From: Flavobacterium sp. KS-LB2
GTDB taxonomy: Bacteria; Bacteroidota; Bacteroidia; Flavobacteriales; Flavobacteriaceae
NCBI RefSeq assembly: GCF_036895565.1
Contig: NZ_CP145904.1
Span: forward strand, 3,344,715-3,408,714
Direction of reading: 5' to 3'
DNA: 64,000 bases
Shown: positions 3,030 through 41,385 of the stretch, in pieces
Position numbering within the stretch: the first letter of the stretch is position 1
Layout of the letters: every line of letters starts with the position of its first letter
Made by a program: the position numbers and the translations under genes
Notes under the pieces: model-generated
The model's database searches: none
Told to the model about the DNA's origin: nothing
What the model saw: the letters and a program-made list of their open reading frames with translations, nothing else

Positions 3030-3110
3030 TTCTATGGCACGCAGATGACGCGGATTTTACGGATTTACACGGATTTCTCTGACGAATATAAGATATTTAT
3101 TCATAAACAA

Positions 3111-3581
3111 CTAAAACAAACTTTGTTGCGTAGTAGGATTTTCATGTTCGAGCAACCATTTTTTGCGCCATAATCCTCCTGCATATCCTGTCAATGAACC
3201 ATCTGTTCCAATGACTCTGTGACAGGGAACTACAATCCACAACGGATTTTTCCCATTAGCAGAGGCTACTGCGCGAATCGCTTTAACGTCGCCTAAAATT
3301 TTGGACTGTTCGAGATATGTTCTGGTTTTTCCGTATGGAATGGCTATTAATGCTTTCCAAACTTTTTGTTGAAATTCAGTTCCTTTTGGATTAAGTTTAA
3401 AATCAAAATCGGTTCGTTTTCCTTCAAAATACTCATGGAGTTGTAAGACCGCTTCTTGCAAAACAGCTGGGATTGTGTTAGAAATCTTGCCTTCATCAGT
3501 AACTGAAATTACCGAAATTCCGTTTTCATCACCAATGATTCTGGCAATTCCTAAAGGTGTTTTAATGTAAGCTGTTTCCAT
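3111..3581 (-). CDS. ogt: Methylated-DNA--protein-cysteine S-methyltransferase
   Basis: A suicide repair protein that removes alkyl groups from O6-alkylguanine onto its own cysteine. The active-site motif VVPCHRVIG is present, with Cys120 as acceptor. It is followed by LTGYAGGLWRKKWLLEHE, the usual end of the alkyltransferase core. At 156 residues it is the short Ogt type with no AdaA DNA-binding region. A -7 box TACTTTTG lies on the minus strand at 3640-3647, giving a leader of about 55 bases. Confidence 0.93.
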   Translation of the reverse strand: METAYIKTPLGIARIIGDENGISVISVTDEGKISNTIPAVLQEAVLQLHEYFEGKRTDFDFKLNPKGTEFQQKVWKALIAIPYGKTRTYLEQSKILGDVKAIRAVASANGKNPLWIVVPCHRVIGTDGSLTGYAGGLWRKKWLLEHENPTTQQSLF

Positions 3582-3639
3582 TTTTTAAGGATAAAAATAA
3601 TTTCTCTTGTTCTCAAAGTAGAAAAGATTCAGAACGGAA

Positions 3640-3647
3640 CAAAAGTA
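3640..3647 (-). promoter_or_regulatory. -7 promoter box (TACTTTTG) for ogt
   Basis: An exact match to the Bacteroidota consensus TAnnTTTG on the minus strand, about 59 bases before the ogt start codon. No clear -33 element was assigned. Confidence 0.5.
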
Positions 3648-3662
3648 GAAGGTTTTGAGTAT

Positions 3663-3696
3663 AAAAAAACCACGCGTTGTAACGAATGGTTTTTTT
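3663..3696. terminator. Terminator hairpin downstream of the cytochrome c gene
   Basis: Arms AAAAAAACCA and TGGTTTTTTT flank a 14-base loop, with A- and T-tracts on either side, so the structure works on either strand. It lies downstream of the minus-strand cytochrome c gene. Confidence 0.65.
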
Positions 3697-3700
3697 ATTT

Positions 3701-3777
3701 TAGCCCCGATAGCAGCGGTATCCTTTTATGTCCGCCGCAGCGGACATAAAAGATATAGCGGATAGCGGGATTAGCTC
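3701..3777. repeat. Dispersed hairpin repeat, copy 1
   Basis: Begins TAGCCCCGATAGCAGCGG and ends AGCGGATAGCGGGATTAGCTC. The ends pair imperfectly (CCCG with CGGG, then TA with TA, then GTATC with GATAT), enclosing a perfect 12-base stem, TTTTATGTCCGC with GCGGACATAAAA, and a four-base loop CGCA. A second copy with the same ends lies at 44850-44993. It contains no open frame. Intergenic, between cytochrome c and ogt. Confidence 0.75.
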
Positions 3778-3793
3778 ATGAAAAATATCAGGA

Positions 3794-4180
3794 TCATTTC
3801 AGATGCGAGTATACATAGGCTTCTAAGGCTTTCAATTCGTCATCAGACATGGCTTTTGTAACAGCGAAGTTTGTTTTCATGACTTCGTACTGGCTTGGGT
3901 CAACAATAGGCTCTCCTTCACCTTTTAAAAACGTTACAATGCTTGCGTTTTTATCTTTGTAAATCTTAGCAATATCCTGCAGGCTTGGTCCTATCACTTT
4001 CTTGTCTACTTGATGGCATGCCACGCAATTTCCCTTTCCTTTGAAAATTTCCTCCCCTAATTCAGCTGGAGTTTGGGCAATTTCTTCGGTAGTAGTTGGG
4101 TATAAGGGTTCTTTTTTGACTTCTTCTTTTTTACAAGAAGCAAAGGCTAAAACGGCAAATAAAAACAGCGTCTTTCTCAT
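3794..4180 (-). CDS. Lipoprotein cytochrome c, single heme
   Basis: A class I c-type cytochrome of 128 residues. The signal peptide ends in the lipobox FASC with the acylated cysteine at position 16, so the mature protein is membrane-tethered in the periplasm. The heme attachment motif CVACH spans residues 52-56, and Met101 in EVMKTNF is the likely sixth ligand. It lies at the distal end of the heme biosynthesis run, separated from the DinB-like gene by about 40 bases. Probable electron carrier to a terminal oxidase or peroxidase; the partner cannot be told from here. Confidence 0.88.
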   Translation of the reverse strand: MRKTLFLFAVLAFASCKKEEVKKEPLYPTTTEEIAQTPAELGEEIFKGKGNCVACHQVDKKVIGPSLQDIAKIYKDKNASIVTFLKGEGEPIVDPSQYEVMKTNFAVTKAMSDDELKALEAYVYSHLK

Positions 4181-4219
4181 GTTAATTTCTTTTATGATTC
4201 TTTTCTAAAGTAGTAAAAA

Positions 4220-4729
4220 TTACCAACCAACATATTTGGGTGGTTGAATTTGATTCAGATTCAAATATACTAAAATTTGCGCTCGGTGATGCGTAACATG
4301 ATCTTGCATCAAATTGAGTATTTGCAATTTTGATTTTGGACCAGCAAAAAAAGCTACTTTTTGGGATAATTCAGCATCATTGGTTTTTTGTACAAATGCC
4401 TTTGCTTTATCAAAAGAGTTTTTTATTTCTTGGATGATTTGCGCTTTAGAGAGTCCTTTTACGGCTTCTTTTTTCACATATTTCTCTTCCGAAAAATGCG
4501 TTGTACTCAACCAATCCATATTCTCTTGTATGTGAAATAATTGTTCTCTAAATGACATTTCCCGCTCGGCAGGTTTGTAATCATATTTATCTTCCGGCAT
4601 GGCTTGTGCAACGGCTACTAAATAATCTTTGGAATTATCCCATTTCTCGATGAAAGTAGCAATTACTTCAACTTGTGCAAAAATGCTATTGGAAAGCAAT
4701 AAAACCACTATTATTAAACATTTTTTCAT
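4220..4729 (-). CDS. DinB-like protein with signal peptide
   Basis: A 169-residue exported protein of the DinB/YfiT metal-binding four-helix family. The chosen start gives MKKCLIIVVLLLSNSIFAQ, a good signal peptide; a longer frame to 4807 exists but would run into hemB. The pattern FREQLFHIQENMDW, then HFSEEKY, then QDHVTHHRAQILVYLNL supplies the three histidines that bind a divalent metal in this fold. The start codon lies only three bases from the hemB stop, so it is translated as part of the heme operon. The substrate is unknown. An export signal is unusual for the mostly cytosolic DinB fold. Confidence 0.8.
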   Translation of the reverse strand: MKKCLIIVVLLLSNSIFAQVEVIATFIEKWDNSKDYLVAVAQAMPEDKYDYKPAEREMSFREQLFHIQENMDWLSTTHFSEEKYVKKEAVKGLSKAQIIQEIKNSFDKAKAFVQKTNDAELSQKVAFFAGPKSKLQILNLMQDHVTHHRAQILVYLNLNQIQPPKYVGW

Positions 4730-36621: not shown

Positions 36622-37596
36622 ATGGCAAAAATACTTACAGGCGTTCAAAGTACAGGAACACCACATTTAGGAAACTTACTTGGCGCAATCATTCCCGCAA
36701 TAGCTTTATCAAATAAACCTGAAAACGAATCCTTTCTTTTCATTGCCGATTTACATTCAATAACACAAATAAAAAACGGCGAAACCTTACGAACCAATAC
36801 CTACAGTACCGCTGCAGCTTGGTTGGCGTGTGGTTTGAATGTAGACAAAGTAGTTTTCTACAGACAATCTGACGTGCCTCAAACAGCGGAATTATCCTGG
36901 TATTTAAGTTGTTTTTTTCCTTTTCAACGCTTGACATTAGCACACTCTTTCAAAGACAAAGCCGATAGACTCGAAGATGTAAACGCTGGTTTGTTTTCGT
37001 ATCCAATGTTAATGGCTGCCGATATTTTATTATACGATGCAGAGTTTGTTCCAGTAGGAAAAGACCAATTGCAACACCTTGAAATCACACGTGATGTAGC
37101 ATCCCGTTTCAACCACCAAATGGGAGAAACGTTCGTACTTCCCGAAGCCAAAATTCAGGAAGACAGCATGTTGATTCCGGGAACCAATGGCGGAAAAATG
37201 AGTAAATCAGCCAATAATATTATCAACATATTCCTGGATGATAAGTCCTTACGCAAACAAGTGATGAGCATTGAAACCGACAGCACGCCGCTGGAAGATC
37301 CTAAAAATCCAGATACGTGCAATGCTTTTGCTATTTATTCCTTATTGGCAAATGAAGAACAAATCGCAGCGATGAAAGCCAATTACCTTGGCGGAAATTA
37401 CGGTTACGGTCACGCCAAACAAGCCTTGTTTGAATTGATTACAGAAACTTTCAAAACCGAAAGAGAGAAATACAATTACTACATCAATAATCTTACTGAA
37501 GTTGATGCACTTTTAAAGATTGGTGCTCAAAAAGCAGCTGCTGTTGCGAATGGAGTGCTGGCAAGAGTAAGAGAAAAATTAGGATTTGAAGTGTAA
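36622..37596 (+). CDS. trpS: Tryptophan--tRNA ligase
   Basis: Charges tRNA-Trp. The class I signatures are TGVQSTGTPHLGNLLGAI (HIGH region, read as HLGN at 15-18) and GGKMSKSANNIIN (KMSKS). The 324-residue length is normal. It is monocistronic, preceded by ACTTTGCGAAA-type tandem sequence and followed by an inverted repeat and a probable terminator. Confidence 0.96.
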   Translation: MAKILTGVQSTGTPHLGNLLGAIIPAIALSNKPENESFLFIADLHSITQIKNGETLRTNTYSTAAAWLACGLNVDKVVFYRQSDVPQTAELSWYLSCFFPFQRLTLAHSFKDKADRLEDVNAGLFSYPMLMAADILLYDAEFVPVGKDQLQHLEITRDVASRFNHQMGETFVLPEAKIQEDSMLIPGTNGGKMSKSANNIINIFLDDKSLRKQVMSIETDSTPLEDPKNPDTCNAFAIYSLLANEEQIAAMKANYLGGNYGYGHAKQALFELITETFKTEREKYNYYINNLTEVDALLKIGAQKAAAVANGVLARVREKLGFEV

Positions 37597-37698: not shown

Positions 37699-37737
37699 AT
37701 CCCTTTTTAGTTCAATGGTCTGGAAAGGGAATTTTTT
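37699..37737 (+). terminator. Probable trpS terminator
   Basis: The arms CCCTTT (37701) and AAAGGG (37724) are followed by ATTTTTTT. The loop is 17 bases, so confidence is moderate. Confidence 0.45.
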
Positions 37738-37835
37738 TAAATATCACTAAAAGTGGGTATTTCCATTACAATAAACACTTCCTATGTTTGTAAACAGCTA
37801 TTAGGATAAATAGTCTTAACTTTACGAATCAAACT

Positions 37836-39573
37836 ATGAAACAAACCAAAAACCAAAAACCAAAAACCAAAAACCAAAAACCAAAAAGCAAAAAGCTACA
37901 TTAGCAAATTTCTACTTCTTTTTGTTCTAACAATAACGTTGAGCAATTGCCAAGCAGAGGAAGATGTAGTTAGAGAAGAAGATCAAATAAATGCTATTTA
38001 TAAAGATGAAACAGTTCGTTATTTGGAAGAACTCAAATTAAATGCTACTAAAAAACAGTTAAATAAAATTGAAGAATTGTCCGCTGCAATTGACATGAAT
38101 ACTCTAAAAATTTATGATTTAAAATCTACTCAAAAAGTACTAATTGTTGACGTAAAATCTTTAAATGGAGTAGAAACTTCAAACAAAATCAAGACCCTTT
38201 TCTTCCTGATTGAAAATAAAATTATTCGATCCAGAATTGTTACTTTTAGCGATAAAACCTCTTTTAATGATAAAGATTATAATAAAATGATTCTTTCCAT
38301 TTTAGATCATAATAAAGATAAAAATCAGTATTCTGGCCTTATATCGTTTTACAGTCCATATCAAAACAAACTACTTACAGATCAATTTGAAAGTGGGATT
38401 CTTACAGAAAACGGGACTTTAAGCCTAAAAAGCACCAAAAATAAAATCGGAAAAACCAATGGTTGTACTGATTGGTATTGGGTAACATACTATTCTAATG
38501 GTACACAAACCAGTCAATACGTGTATACCACCTGCACTCCTTGTGAAGAAATGGCGTATAAAACAACAAATGATTGTGGTGGCGGAAGCGGTGGTGGTTC
38601 TAGCTCAGGCGGGACAGGAGGCGGGCCCAGTTTTCCGAATTCGCCCAATACGAACGACACATACGATTACTTCTCGCCAGAAGGCGAACACGTTAGGTTT
38701 CAGTTTATAGATAACATTTGGAAAATCATTCTAATCAGCCTACCTGAAGTTGTAGTGAAGTCAGTTCCTGAATCACGTCCTTACTTGATTTTTGATTGGC
38801 CTCAAGACCAACAAAAAGCTTATGGTGAAGGATTTATTTTTACTTATGAATCAGAAACGGGAAGTTGGGAAGGAGTGCCTGCAACCGATCAACTTTTGGC
38901 TGAAGTTATAGAAGATCAAATTGATGATAGTAAACTTGACCCTTGCCCAAAAGAGGTTATGCAACAACTCAAAAATACAACAAATTCCGATATAGTTAAT
39001 GTGCTGAAGAAATTGGGAGCAAGCAGTATATATACCGTAAATATGGTCATGGAGCCAGCAGCTACTTATGCAGAGACTCAACGAATTTCCAAAAATAATT
39101 ATGTAATTAGAGTTGATAGAACTAGCTCTACAGATGGCACAAAATTATTTAAAGCCACAGCATTGGTACACGAGGTGATACATGCGTACTTTTTGAGCAT
39201 CGTAGACGATTATAATTACAACTACCCTACCAATGCTCCAATGGCCGATTTTCCTGAATTATTTGAGGCATATGTAAAAAAAACATATCCTAATCCGAGC
39301 GATGCACAACACAAAGAAATGGCTGATAAATATGTAGATGCTATGGCATCGGCATTGCAAGAATATGATGCAAATTATACTGTGCCATATCAAGTTTACA
39401 AAGATTTAGCTTGGGGTGGTTTAAGAGATGCTCCAGTATTTAATGCTACATTTCCTCCAGGAAGTGCCGAAAGAATTAGAATTACAAATAGATACAACGC
39501 AGAATCTACTGGTCATTCTGTTGGAGATGGAACTCCAAATGCACAAACACCAGTGGGAAAACCATGTAATTAA
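37836..39573 (+). CDS. HExxH lipoprotein, phase-variable; out of frame in this copy
   Basis: An ATG at 37836 opens a lysine-rich start but reaches TAG at 37902. In the +1 frame after the repeat, an uninterrupted frame gives KSYISKFLLLFVLTITLSNC, a complete lipoprotein signal with cysteine at 37948-37950, then about 540 mature residues to the stop. Six perfect CCAAAAA units (37846-37887) lie between. Removing one unit (or adding two) joins the two parts into a 576-residue lipoprotein. The mature part has a GGGSGGGSSSGGTGGGP linker and an HEVIHAY zinc motif (39169-39183). No named family is recognised. Internal TTG initiation at 37939 would yield a product without signal peptide. Confidence 0.75.
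37846..37894 (+). repeat. Seven-base tandem repeat (CCAAAAA)x6 plus one variant unit, within a signal peptide
   Basis: Six exact copies of CCAAAAA at 37846-37887, then GCAAAAA at 37888-37894. A unit of seven is not a multiple of three, so each gain or loss shifts the reading frame; copy numbers 5, 8 and 11 give the full lipoprotein, others do not. Confidence 0.9.
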
Positions 39574-39584
39574 ACTTTGAAACG

Positions 39585-40202
39585 ATGAAAAACTACTTTA
39601 TTTACACCGTCATTATTTTATTATCCATAACAAATTTTTCAAATATGTTGTTTGCACAATCAACAAATGAAAAATACAAAGCGCTTAACGACTATTTTGA
39701 AACAATTGTAAAAGATTCAACCCAAGATGTGTTTGTTGCTAAAGAAAAAATTAATTCCAATGAGACTTTAAATATATTTGGATTAAACGAAATATTGATT
39801 GTTGATCCAGCAGGAAATTGGAAAAGTGACACTACGTTATACAAAAAGAAAGACTTCGAAATGATGAAGAAAGAATACAAAAACAGATGTGTTCCAGGTA
39901 AGAGAATTTGGTGGTGTAATGACGATTACTGGACGAAAGATGATTTTAGGTATAAAAAAGTTGTTTTAGAAAGTATGAATAGAGATAAAGGGATAGAGCT
40001 TATTTTTGAGAAATATAATGGAATAGACATTGACGTGTATGGTTTTTCCGAACCTATTTATTACCAAAATAACAAATATGTTGTTTTTACGGTACATAAA
40101 TCACATATGGCAGGGACAAATACAATTATTGTTATAATGAAAAAAATTAAATGCAAATGGATTGTGACACACCAAGGGTCGAACCATAATATTATAAACT
40201 AA
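39585..40202 (+). CDS. Secreted protein of unknown function, partner of the HExxH lipoprotein
   Basis: A 205-residue exported protein. MKNYFIYTVIILLSITNFSNMLFAQ is a Sec signal peptide ending after FAQ. The mature part is basic, has few recognisable motifs, and contains three cysteines near KNRCVPGKRIWWCNDDYW and the late KKIKCKW. It starts 12 bases after the lipoprotein stop, so the two are likely co-transcribed. It might be a substrate, inhibitor or partner of the metalloprotease-like neighbour; none of these is shown. Ends at a run of A residues. Confidence 0.7.
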   Translation: MKNYFIYTVIILLSITNFSNMLFAQSTNEKYKALNDYFETIVKDSTQDVFVAKEKINSNETLNIFGLNEILIVDPAGNWKSDTTLYKKKDFEMMKKEYKNRCVPGKRIWWCNDDYWTKDDFRYKKVVLESMNRDKGIELIFEKYNGIDIDVYGFSEPIYYQNNKYVVFTVHKSHMAGTNTIIVIMKKIKCKWIVTHQGSNHNIIN

Positions 40203-40250: not shown

Positions 40251-40286
40251 AAAAAGCAGTTTCCGTATTTAGGAACTGCTTTTTTT
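40251..40286. terminator. Terminator between the secreted protein and dprA
   Basis: The arms AAAAAGCAGTTTCC and GGAACTGCTTTTTT (one bulge) lie between convergent genes; the right arm overlaps the dprA stop codon. Confidence 0.75.
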
Positions 40287-41385
40287 ATATCGCCTCAAAC
40301 AATTTCCCCGGCAGAGGTCGTATCACGCCTTTCAATTCCATATTCAATAGCATTCCAGAGATTTTATAAATAGGAAAATCACAGCGCAAAGCAATAATAT
40401 CCATCAGTTCTTTTCCTGTTTTAAGGAGGTAATCGTATACTTTTTGCTCATCATCATCTAAGCTTACAAACAATTGTTTCTGTACGGGTTTGGATTCCTT
40501 CTGAATATCCCAATTCAAAATATAGATCAAATCCGCAGCACTCGTCAAGACATTTGCTTTTTGGGTTTTTATCAGGTTGTTGCAACCCTGGCTGTATTTA
40601 TCCGTAACACGTCCCGGAACGGCAAAAACATCTCGATTGTAATCATTGGCCAAATTTGCCGTGATTAAAGATCCGCCTCTATCCGCTGATTCAATTACGA
40701 TAGTCGCTTCAGACATTCCTGCAACGATTCTGTTTCTTCGTACGAAATTTTCTTTATCGGGATTCGAGGAACTCCAAAACTCGGTCATAAAACCACCGTT
40801 CTGCTCGACTTTCGATACATATTTTTTATGGGTTTTCGGGTAAATTTGGTTCAACCCATGCGCTACAACTCCTATCGTCTGTAAATTATGTTCCATTGCC
40901 AATTGGTGTGCGACAATATCAACGCCATAGGCAAAACCACTGACAATTATAGGATCCAGTGGAGCTAAATCTTCGATCAGTTTTCTACAAAATTCCGTTC
41001 CATACGAGGTAATTTGGCGCGTTCCTACAATACTGATTATTCTTCTGTTTTTTAAATTGATATTTCCAGATGTGAATAATAAAAGTGGTCCATCAATACA
41101 ATGTTTCAACCGTTCCGGATAGTCTTCATCCTGAAAATAAACTGCATTTATTTCATTTGCTTTTATAAACTCCAGTTCTTGAGTTGCTTTTTCGAAAACC
41201 GATTTGTCCTTTAAATTTTTCATCAAAACAGATCCTACTCCATCAATAGCAGCGAGTTGCGAAGCCTTTGTATTAAAAACCGCTTCTGCAGTTCCAAAAT
41301 GGGTAATCAGTTTTTTGGCCATGATGTCGCCTACGCCTTCTATTCTTTGCAATGCCAATAAATAAAATAAATCCTGCTCTTTCAT
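40285..41385 (-). CDS. dprA: DNA-processing protein DprA
   Basis: Loads RecA on incoming single-stranded DNA during natural transformation. It has 366 residues: an N-terminal helix-hairpin-helix-like region (LQRIEGVGDIMAKKLI, LAAIDGVGSVLMKNL), the Rossmann-like core with IVGTRQITSYGTEFCRKLIEDL and SGFAYGVDIVAHQLAME, the stretch GGSLITANLANDYNRDVFAVPG, and a C-terminal winged-helix-like end. Suggests competence potential, which would also favour genome plasticity. No other competence gene is in the window. Confidence 0.94.
   Translation of the reverse strand: MKEQDLFYLLALQRIEGVGDIMAKKLITHFGTAEAVFNTKASQLAAIDGVGSVLMKNLKDKSVFEKATQELEFIKANEINAVYFQDEDYPERLKHCIDGPLLLFTSGNINLKNRRIISIVGTRQITSYGTEFCRKLIEDLAPLDPIIVSGFAYGVDIVAHQLAMEHNLQTIGVVAHGLNQIYPKTHKKYVSKVEQNGGFMTEFWSSSNPDKENFVRRNRIVAGMSEATIVIESADRGGSLITANLANDYNRDVFAVPGRVTDKYSQGCNNLIKTQKANVLTSAADLIYILNWDIQKESKPVQKQLFVSLDDDEQKVYDYLLKTGKELMDIIALRCDFPIYKISGMLLNMELKGVIRPLPGKLFEAI

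Follow-up and report, generated by a model that had tools for sequence, protein, structure and literature searches.

How is a lipoprotein gene expressed when its signal peptide is out of frame with its start codon? The question arises in the 64,000-nucleotide (nt) stretch of Flavobacterium sp. KS-LB2 analysed here (the window; the genome, G000, is a 3.41-Mb single contig). Between two genes assigned by sequence as trpS and dprA, an ATG at 37836 is followed by a tandem array of the heptanucleotide CCAAAAA, and then by a lipoprotein signal whose open frame is a different one. We propose, with a probability of roughly three in four, that slipped-strand changes in the array turn a surface lipoprotein ON and OFF; the most likely identity of its body is a polymorphic toxin, and the next gene is probably the immunity gene. 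Comparison between species gives the phase-switch reading good support; slippage as its cause, and switching within a population, are what we infer from that comparison.

The array and the reading frames in the window

The features on which this proposal rests are the following.

37836..37838, + strand: start codon ATG; its frame differs from that of the signal in the window and agrees with it in the related genome G223
37846..37887, + strand: six exact CCAAAAA units (sequence, Tandem Repeats Finder, shuffles)
37888..37894, + strand: unit 7, the variant GCAAAAA (sequence, alignment)
37902..37904, + strand: TAG closing the ATG frame after 22 codons (frame reading)
37906..37950, + strand: lipoprotein signal KFLLLFVLTITLSNC, assigned by motif alone, with the lipobox cysteine codon at 37948-37950
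37840..39573, + strand: lipoprotein open frame of 577 codons, without a usable start in the sequenced phase

The array is far beyond chance. Tandem Repeats Finder places it at the top of its 15 rows for the window (37843-37894, period 7, 7.4 copies, 97% matches, score 97). An exact period of 7 is kept over 45 nt, whereas no such run exceeded 19 nt when the window was shuffled 100 times with its dinucleotides preserved. Runs of at least three exact CCAAAAA units occur at this single place in the 3.41-Mb genome; a reversed-pattern control is uninformative for these arrays, the repeat being identical when read backwards.

The lipoprotein frame is +1 relative to the ATG at 37836. It opens at 37840, right after a TGA overlapping that ATG, and from there contains no ATG, GTG or TTG until TTG 37939, itself within the signal peptide. 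A tandem repeat with a non-triplet unit is located between start codon and body, the arrangement typical of slipped-strand phase variation. The sequence-only reading of this DNA had reported the ATG, the six exact units plus one variant, the signal open in a different frame, and the end of the ATG frame at TAG 37902; all of these are recovered from the sequence. It had further stated that five or eight units restore the frame and give a 576-residue lipoprotein. The arithmetic of restoration is right, but only one of these two counts gives a length of 576 residues.

An assembly or sequencing error in the number of units would give the same picture, and A5 runs are indeed error-prone. The six units are all perfect, which makes single-base errors unlikely, and several other, independent genomes show the same layout in the OFF state (next section). 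This explanation is scarcely credible.

Array loci in other genomes and in database proteins

The locus can be followed between species thanks to its conserved neighbours.

36622..37596, + strand: trpS, tryptophanyl-tRNA synthetase, the conserved left neighbour, which anchors the orthologous locus
40285..41385, - strand: dprA, the conserved right neighbour

The orthologous place was sought by a DNA search of 299 genomes of the genus with the end of trpS plus the leader. Thirty loci were read out, G254 and G246 being read separately; one genome per species was compared, and the variation described is thus between species. The trpS identity to the window is 96.9% in G201, about 90-97% for the other 28 loci and 92.6% in G254.

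Six trpS loci carry an array, and the long frame is open in all of them. The leader reads ATGAAACAAA and then (CCAAAAA)6 plus GCAAAAA in the window, (CCAAAAA)4 in G201, (GCACAAA)4 in G315, (CCACAAA)7 in G154 and (CCACAAA)4 in G254. The ATG is offset by +1 in the first three and by +2 in the last two, and all five are OFF. In G223, three imperfect units (CCACAAA-CCACAGA-CCACAAA) leave the ATG in frame (ON), with the translation MKQTTNHRPQSFISKFFLLFVLAFSMSDC. Both states are thus observed in DNA at the same locus, one ON and five OFF. G223 and G254, unlike the window and G201, have an extra ATG that lies 30 nt ahead of the leader ATG and shares its frame.

Not only the number of units but also the repeat word differs between orthologues, while the unit length stays at 7. 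This suggests that what is conserved is the frame-shifting property of the array and not its sequence. The phase-switch interpretation given in the sequence-only reading gains support from this comparison. A copy number fixed across relatives, or a start codon elsewhere, would have spoken against that interpretation. The number varies among the trpS loci from 4 to 7 (3 imperfect units in G223); in the window no usable start lies in frame upstream of the signal, and the same ATG is in frame in G223.

Arrays are not confined to the trpS locus. A second locus of the same genome (C1:3319738), 63 kb before the window leader, exhibits the same promoter motif (described below), ATGAAACAAA, and (CCACAAA)3 plus a variant; its gene is OFF with offset +1 and open over 657 codons. 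Other leaders of the same protein family, all OFF, carry (CAAA)15 in G128, (TTCCAAA)4 in G252 and (AAAAAAC)3 at two places in G192. The words CCAAAAA, CCACAAA, GCACAAA, TTCCAAA, AAAAAAC and CAAA are all stop-free in all three frames; the array is therefore readable in every phase, and its word is free to change. Among the eight array loci found regardless of frame (six trpS loci, the second own locus, and G192 counted once), one is ON. The departure from an expected one third ON is not significant (about 0.2, calculated by hand on these 8 loci).

A search with the leader pattern across 398 genomes gave 27 places in 24 genomes, against about 57 genomes for the reversed control. The pattern is thus unspecific, and the true cases are singled out by an array together with a lipoprotein frame. 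That layout is found in G000 (2 places), G201, G315, G154, G254 and G192 (2 places). The remaining places were judged by the frame of the ATG only and seem to be chance matches; at L172 a lipoprotein stands in frame with no array.

These offsets bear on ribosomal frameshifting in or just after the A-rich array, by which the six-unit allele would give protein at a low, fixed level. The A5 runs and an AAAAAG near the junction would suit such an event, and the window, the second own locus, G201, G315, G128 and G192 have an offset of +1 in common. But the offset is +2 in G154, G254 and G252, and 0 in G223. Since the frame relation varies among relatives, no single programmed frameshift explains them; moreover, neither the length nor the word of the array is conserved, unlike a slippery site. 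We consider frameshifting unlikely.

The comparison was extended to 79 homologous proteins of the databases, whose called starts are weaker evidence than DNA. P0001 corresponds to the OFF frame of the window, with its start called inside the signal (LSNC). P0003 and P0006 begin with MKQTTNHKPQSFISKF, like the G223 leader. P0009 and P0023, with starts called inside the signal, exhibit 89-91% identity to the P0003/P0006 type over the 150 residues past the lipobox. Likewise, the leader-started P0007 and P0008 are 98% identical to the signal-started P0011 and P0012 (tested from P0007), and the leader-started P0013 and P0034 are 83-89% identical to the signal-started P0022. The N-terminal domains of such near twins are 83-98% identical overall. 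The N-terminal domains of P0027 and P0028 are identical but their called starts differ, which may be the gene caller's choice; a called start inside the signal is therefore no proof of an OFF allele. We gave more weight to P0009, P0023, P0011 and P0012, in which the start is called where the twin has a leucine.

The same data concern the possibility that translation begins within the lipoprotein frame at a non-standard codon such as ATT 37900. The signal peptide would then be short and normal, and the array would be a mere 5' leader. This ATT stands in frame before SKFLLLFVLTITLSNC and is also in frame in G201, G315, G223 and the second own locus; G154 and G254 have no such in-frame codon at that place. 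The leader ATG is itself in frame in G223, P0003 and P0006. Such a start is very unlikely to be the explanation.

If the array had merely drifted, the window allele would be a pseudogene, in keeping with its lack of an in-frame start. Signs of decay and loss do exist: at the trpS locus of G246 the array is missing, the ATG is out of frame and a stop interrupts the body; the second G192 copy (L191) combines an array with a cut body; and the cargo is absent, dprA lying within 250 nt of trpS, in 13/30 loci (tblastn). Against this, frames of 385 to 657 codons are intact in all seven array-bearing loci of the window leader type, G223 included, and the ratio of nonsynonymous to synonymous substitution rates (dN/dS) is mostly low. 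In eleven comparisons by the NG86 method, where several dS values exceed 1.5 and the ratios are rough, dN/dS is below 0.5 in nine. It amounts to 0.27 between G201 and G154 (both OFF, 190 codons). For the window and G254 (both OFF), a C-terminal stretch of 236 codons gives 0.18 and an N-terminal one of 98 codons gives 0.41. The window yields 0.11 with G080, 0.24 with HJJ, 0.28 with G238, 0.33 with G075 and 0.48 with G315, and the G315/G223 pair yields 0.47. The frames are kept overall, and OFF is therefore unlikely to be a long-lived dead state. We leave only a slim chance to a dead gene.

The lipoprotein body, its partner gene and the promoter

The sequence-only reading had labelled the product a surface protein. 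This label can be refined, the body resembling a polymorphic toxin followed by a partner gene.

38890..39570, + strand: C-terminal zincin-like metallopeptidase domain, with HEVIH at 39169-39183
39585..40202, + strand: partner gene, 205 aa, N-terminus resembling a secretion signal, candidate immunity gene

The C-terminal part covers about 225 residues. Of its HExxH motif, HE is invariant and the second histidine nearly invariant in 38 aligned proteins. The structure of this part is well modelled and its best matches are zincins, weakly so; a Foldseek search returned no match at E 0.001, and sequence searches of the PDB returned nothing above cut-off.

The N-terminal part is shared by proteins with different C-termini. 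The signal and first residues of the window protein are common to G201 and G315. The window protein, P0002 and P0005 are 97% identical over the 150 residues past the lipobox; their C-termini diverge, those of P0002 and P0005 bearing HExxH. P0072 has the later N-terminal part in common with them and ends in an HNHP-type C-terminus like that of G201 and P0023, presumably JAB-like, with no profile match. G315 and G223 share a C-terminal domain, presumably M15-like by its motif (Pfam E 0.45 for G315), with differing middles and similar partner genes.

The partner starts after a gap of 11 nt behind the lipoprotein stop. A homologue of it lies behind the zincin-like domain in 26/35 other loci (those with at least 600 nt downstream), and any open reading frame of at least 100 aa starting within 150 nt downstream is present in 33/35. 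Orphan C-terminal frames of 45-96 aa also occur, one of them behind the G254 gene. A shared N-terminus, exchanged C-termini and a partner gene make up a polymorphic-toxin architecture, and the orphan cassettes belong to the same pattern. A polymorphic toxin ending in a zincin-like domain is thus the most likely identity of the body, and cognate immunity the most likely role of the gene that follows.

At the trpS locus of G315 (L194, about 3100-4602), an orphan zincin-type tip and partner-like genes stand behind an intact toxin-like/partner pair.

Upstream of the ATG, the leader contains the following elements.

37700..37739, + strand: hairpin plus T-run 3' of trpS, terminator-like (read by eye, unscored)
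37745..37761, + strand: conserved promoter motif CACTAAAAGTGGGTATT (pattern search)
37783..37790, + strand: TATGTTTG, fitting TANNTTTG, starting 21 nt past the end of the motif

At up to 2 mismatches, CACTAAAAGTGGGTATT has a single match in the window, against 0.03 expected. The motif has 6 sites in the own genome and none for the reversed control. In its form CACTAAAWGTGGGTATT it is found in 116/398 genomes of the genus, against 5 for the reversed control, and it lies 53-75 nt upstream of the ATG in 8/9 leaders (one mismatch in G201; G252 lacks it). In the seven leaders having both elements, TANNTTTG, the Bacteroidota -7 consensus, always starts exactly 21 nt after the motif end. At 35 other motif sites, leaders excluded, TANNTTTG occurs within 45 nt in 4, every one at 21 nt; the shorter TANNTTT is found at 21 nt in 10, and at seven other spacings once each. 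The leaders share a dedicated, predicted promoter with this fixed spacing.

The CACTAAAWGTGGGTATT motif, often with TANNTTT(G) at the fixed 21 nt, is also located in front of the genes for a small membrane protein, for repeat-rich proteins and for other products (L060-L095). As it precedes other, unrelated genes, it marks a wider regulon.

The proposed switch and related systems

The switch would operate as follows. Transcription would start from the dedicated promoter (the motif plus TANNTTTG), and translation would start at ATG 37836 and run through the array. Slippage would add or remove 7-base units and thereby change the frame between the ATG and the signal. In the sequenced phase the ribosome would stop after 22 codons (OFF); in another it would enter the lipoprotein signal (ON). 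Most unit words encode polar or basic residues, suiting the n-region of a signal peptide. The partner gene, with a start of its own behind the toxin-like gene, may continue to provide immunity in OFF cells, and polarity could lower its expression there.

Several observations weigh against this proposal. Six or seven units are short for a fast switch, and the sole leader that is ON at the DNA level, that of G223, has a degenerate array. The second array copy of G192 has its body cut at 113 aa. When arrays of units of at least 4 bases before an out-of-frame ATG are counted, 4/40 family loci bear one by eye, the window included, and a second set of 40 family regions gave 0/40 (one region without match). 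CCAAAAA arrays occur away from lipoproteins as well, in 4/6 genomes. The window/G201 comparison yields a dN/dS of 0.72 (64 codons), and one comparison is saturated in dS. As for the body, Pfam and NCBIfam searches returned nothing above cut-off, and toxicity is predicted from the architecture.

A broader idea is that the leader is a portable phase-variable unit (promoter module, start codon, changeable 7-base array and lipoprotein signal) behind which toxin-like bodies plus partners would be swapped between species. We hold it tentatively, at a little under an even chance. If true, OFF cells could keep immunity, and only some members of a clone would carry the weapon.

Repeat-driven phase variation is textbook knowledge for Haemophilus, Neisseria and Campylobacter. 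Amoebophilus belongs to Bacteroidota, and Ornithobacterium hominis belongs to the same bacterial order as Flavobacterium. In Bacteroidota, the usual examples of phase variation are DNA inversions (PMC11868660). Haemophilus Lav, with GCAA repeats and repeat-mediated translational phase variation (PMC9022572), resembles the window system in its non-triplet repeat and in having a surface protein that occurs in both ON and OFF alleles, the latter being common. The window system differs by its heptanucleotide units, its occurrence in Flavobacterium, a word that changes between species, and toxin-like cargo plus partner. The polymorphic toxin architecture matches the description in PMC3482391. Myxobacterial SitA toxins are likewise lipoproteins with a shared N-terminal domain, exchanged C-termini and a cognate immunity gene (PMC5562445, PMC8546572); they are delivered by outer membrane exchange, the parts of these papers compared mention no phase switch, and the likeness is one of description, not of sequence. 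The Amoebophilus APD1/APD2 effectors have a lipobox, a conserved N-terminus and polymorphic C-termini. These proteins of an endosymbiont, compared here by description, have the host as their predicted target, and the term phase variation is absent from the parts compared (PMC3482391). The FSD adhesins of O. hominis share with our system the many genes of one surface family and a putative phase-variation mechanism, but are adhesins and not toxin-like (PMC13183296).

Repeat-mediated phase variation is thus a known kind of system. We found no description of a repeat-switched toxin-like lipoprotein in Flavobacterium in the open-access literature, most subscription papers being outside this scope. 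Random expression of such a lipoprotein with its partner would arm only part of a clone. In several species, a simple measurement of length would suffice to type the trpS locus.

Some other repeats were observed in passing. In G254 (L046; C38, about 85158-85194), an array of six CCAAAAA units immediately precedes the start of a permease-like gene, as a different use or an accident. In G329 (L049; C18), eight CCAAAAA units lie upstream of another gene, near the end of the stretch examined. Homopolymer switches are possible at two loci. In a paralogue of the same genome (L015; G000:C1:276951-277727 plus upstream), seven A follow the ATG and the lipoprotein frame is off by one; in G152 (L112; C1:550400-552900), eight C lie between an ATG and a lipoprotein frame that lacks an ATG. 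At two further places (L017, G000:C1:739656; L129, G152:C32) the family frame breaks at eight or nine A after the lipobox, through a switch or decay. Finally, three leaders (L006, L027 and L063) exhibit an apparent in-frame TTG start (AATTTGAAAACA...), followed in L006 and L027 by a few CAAA-like units.
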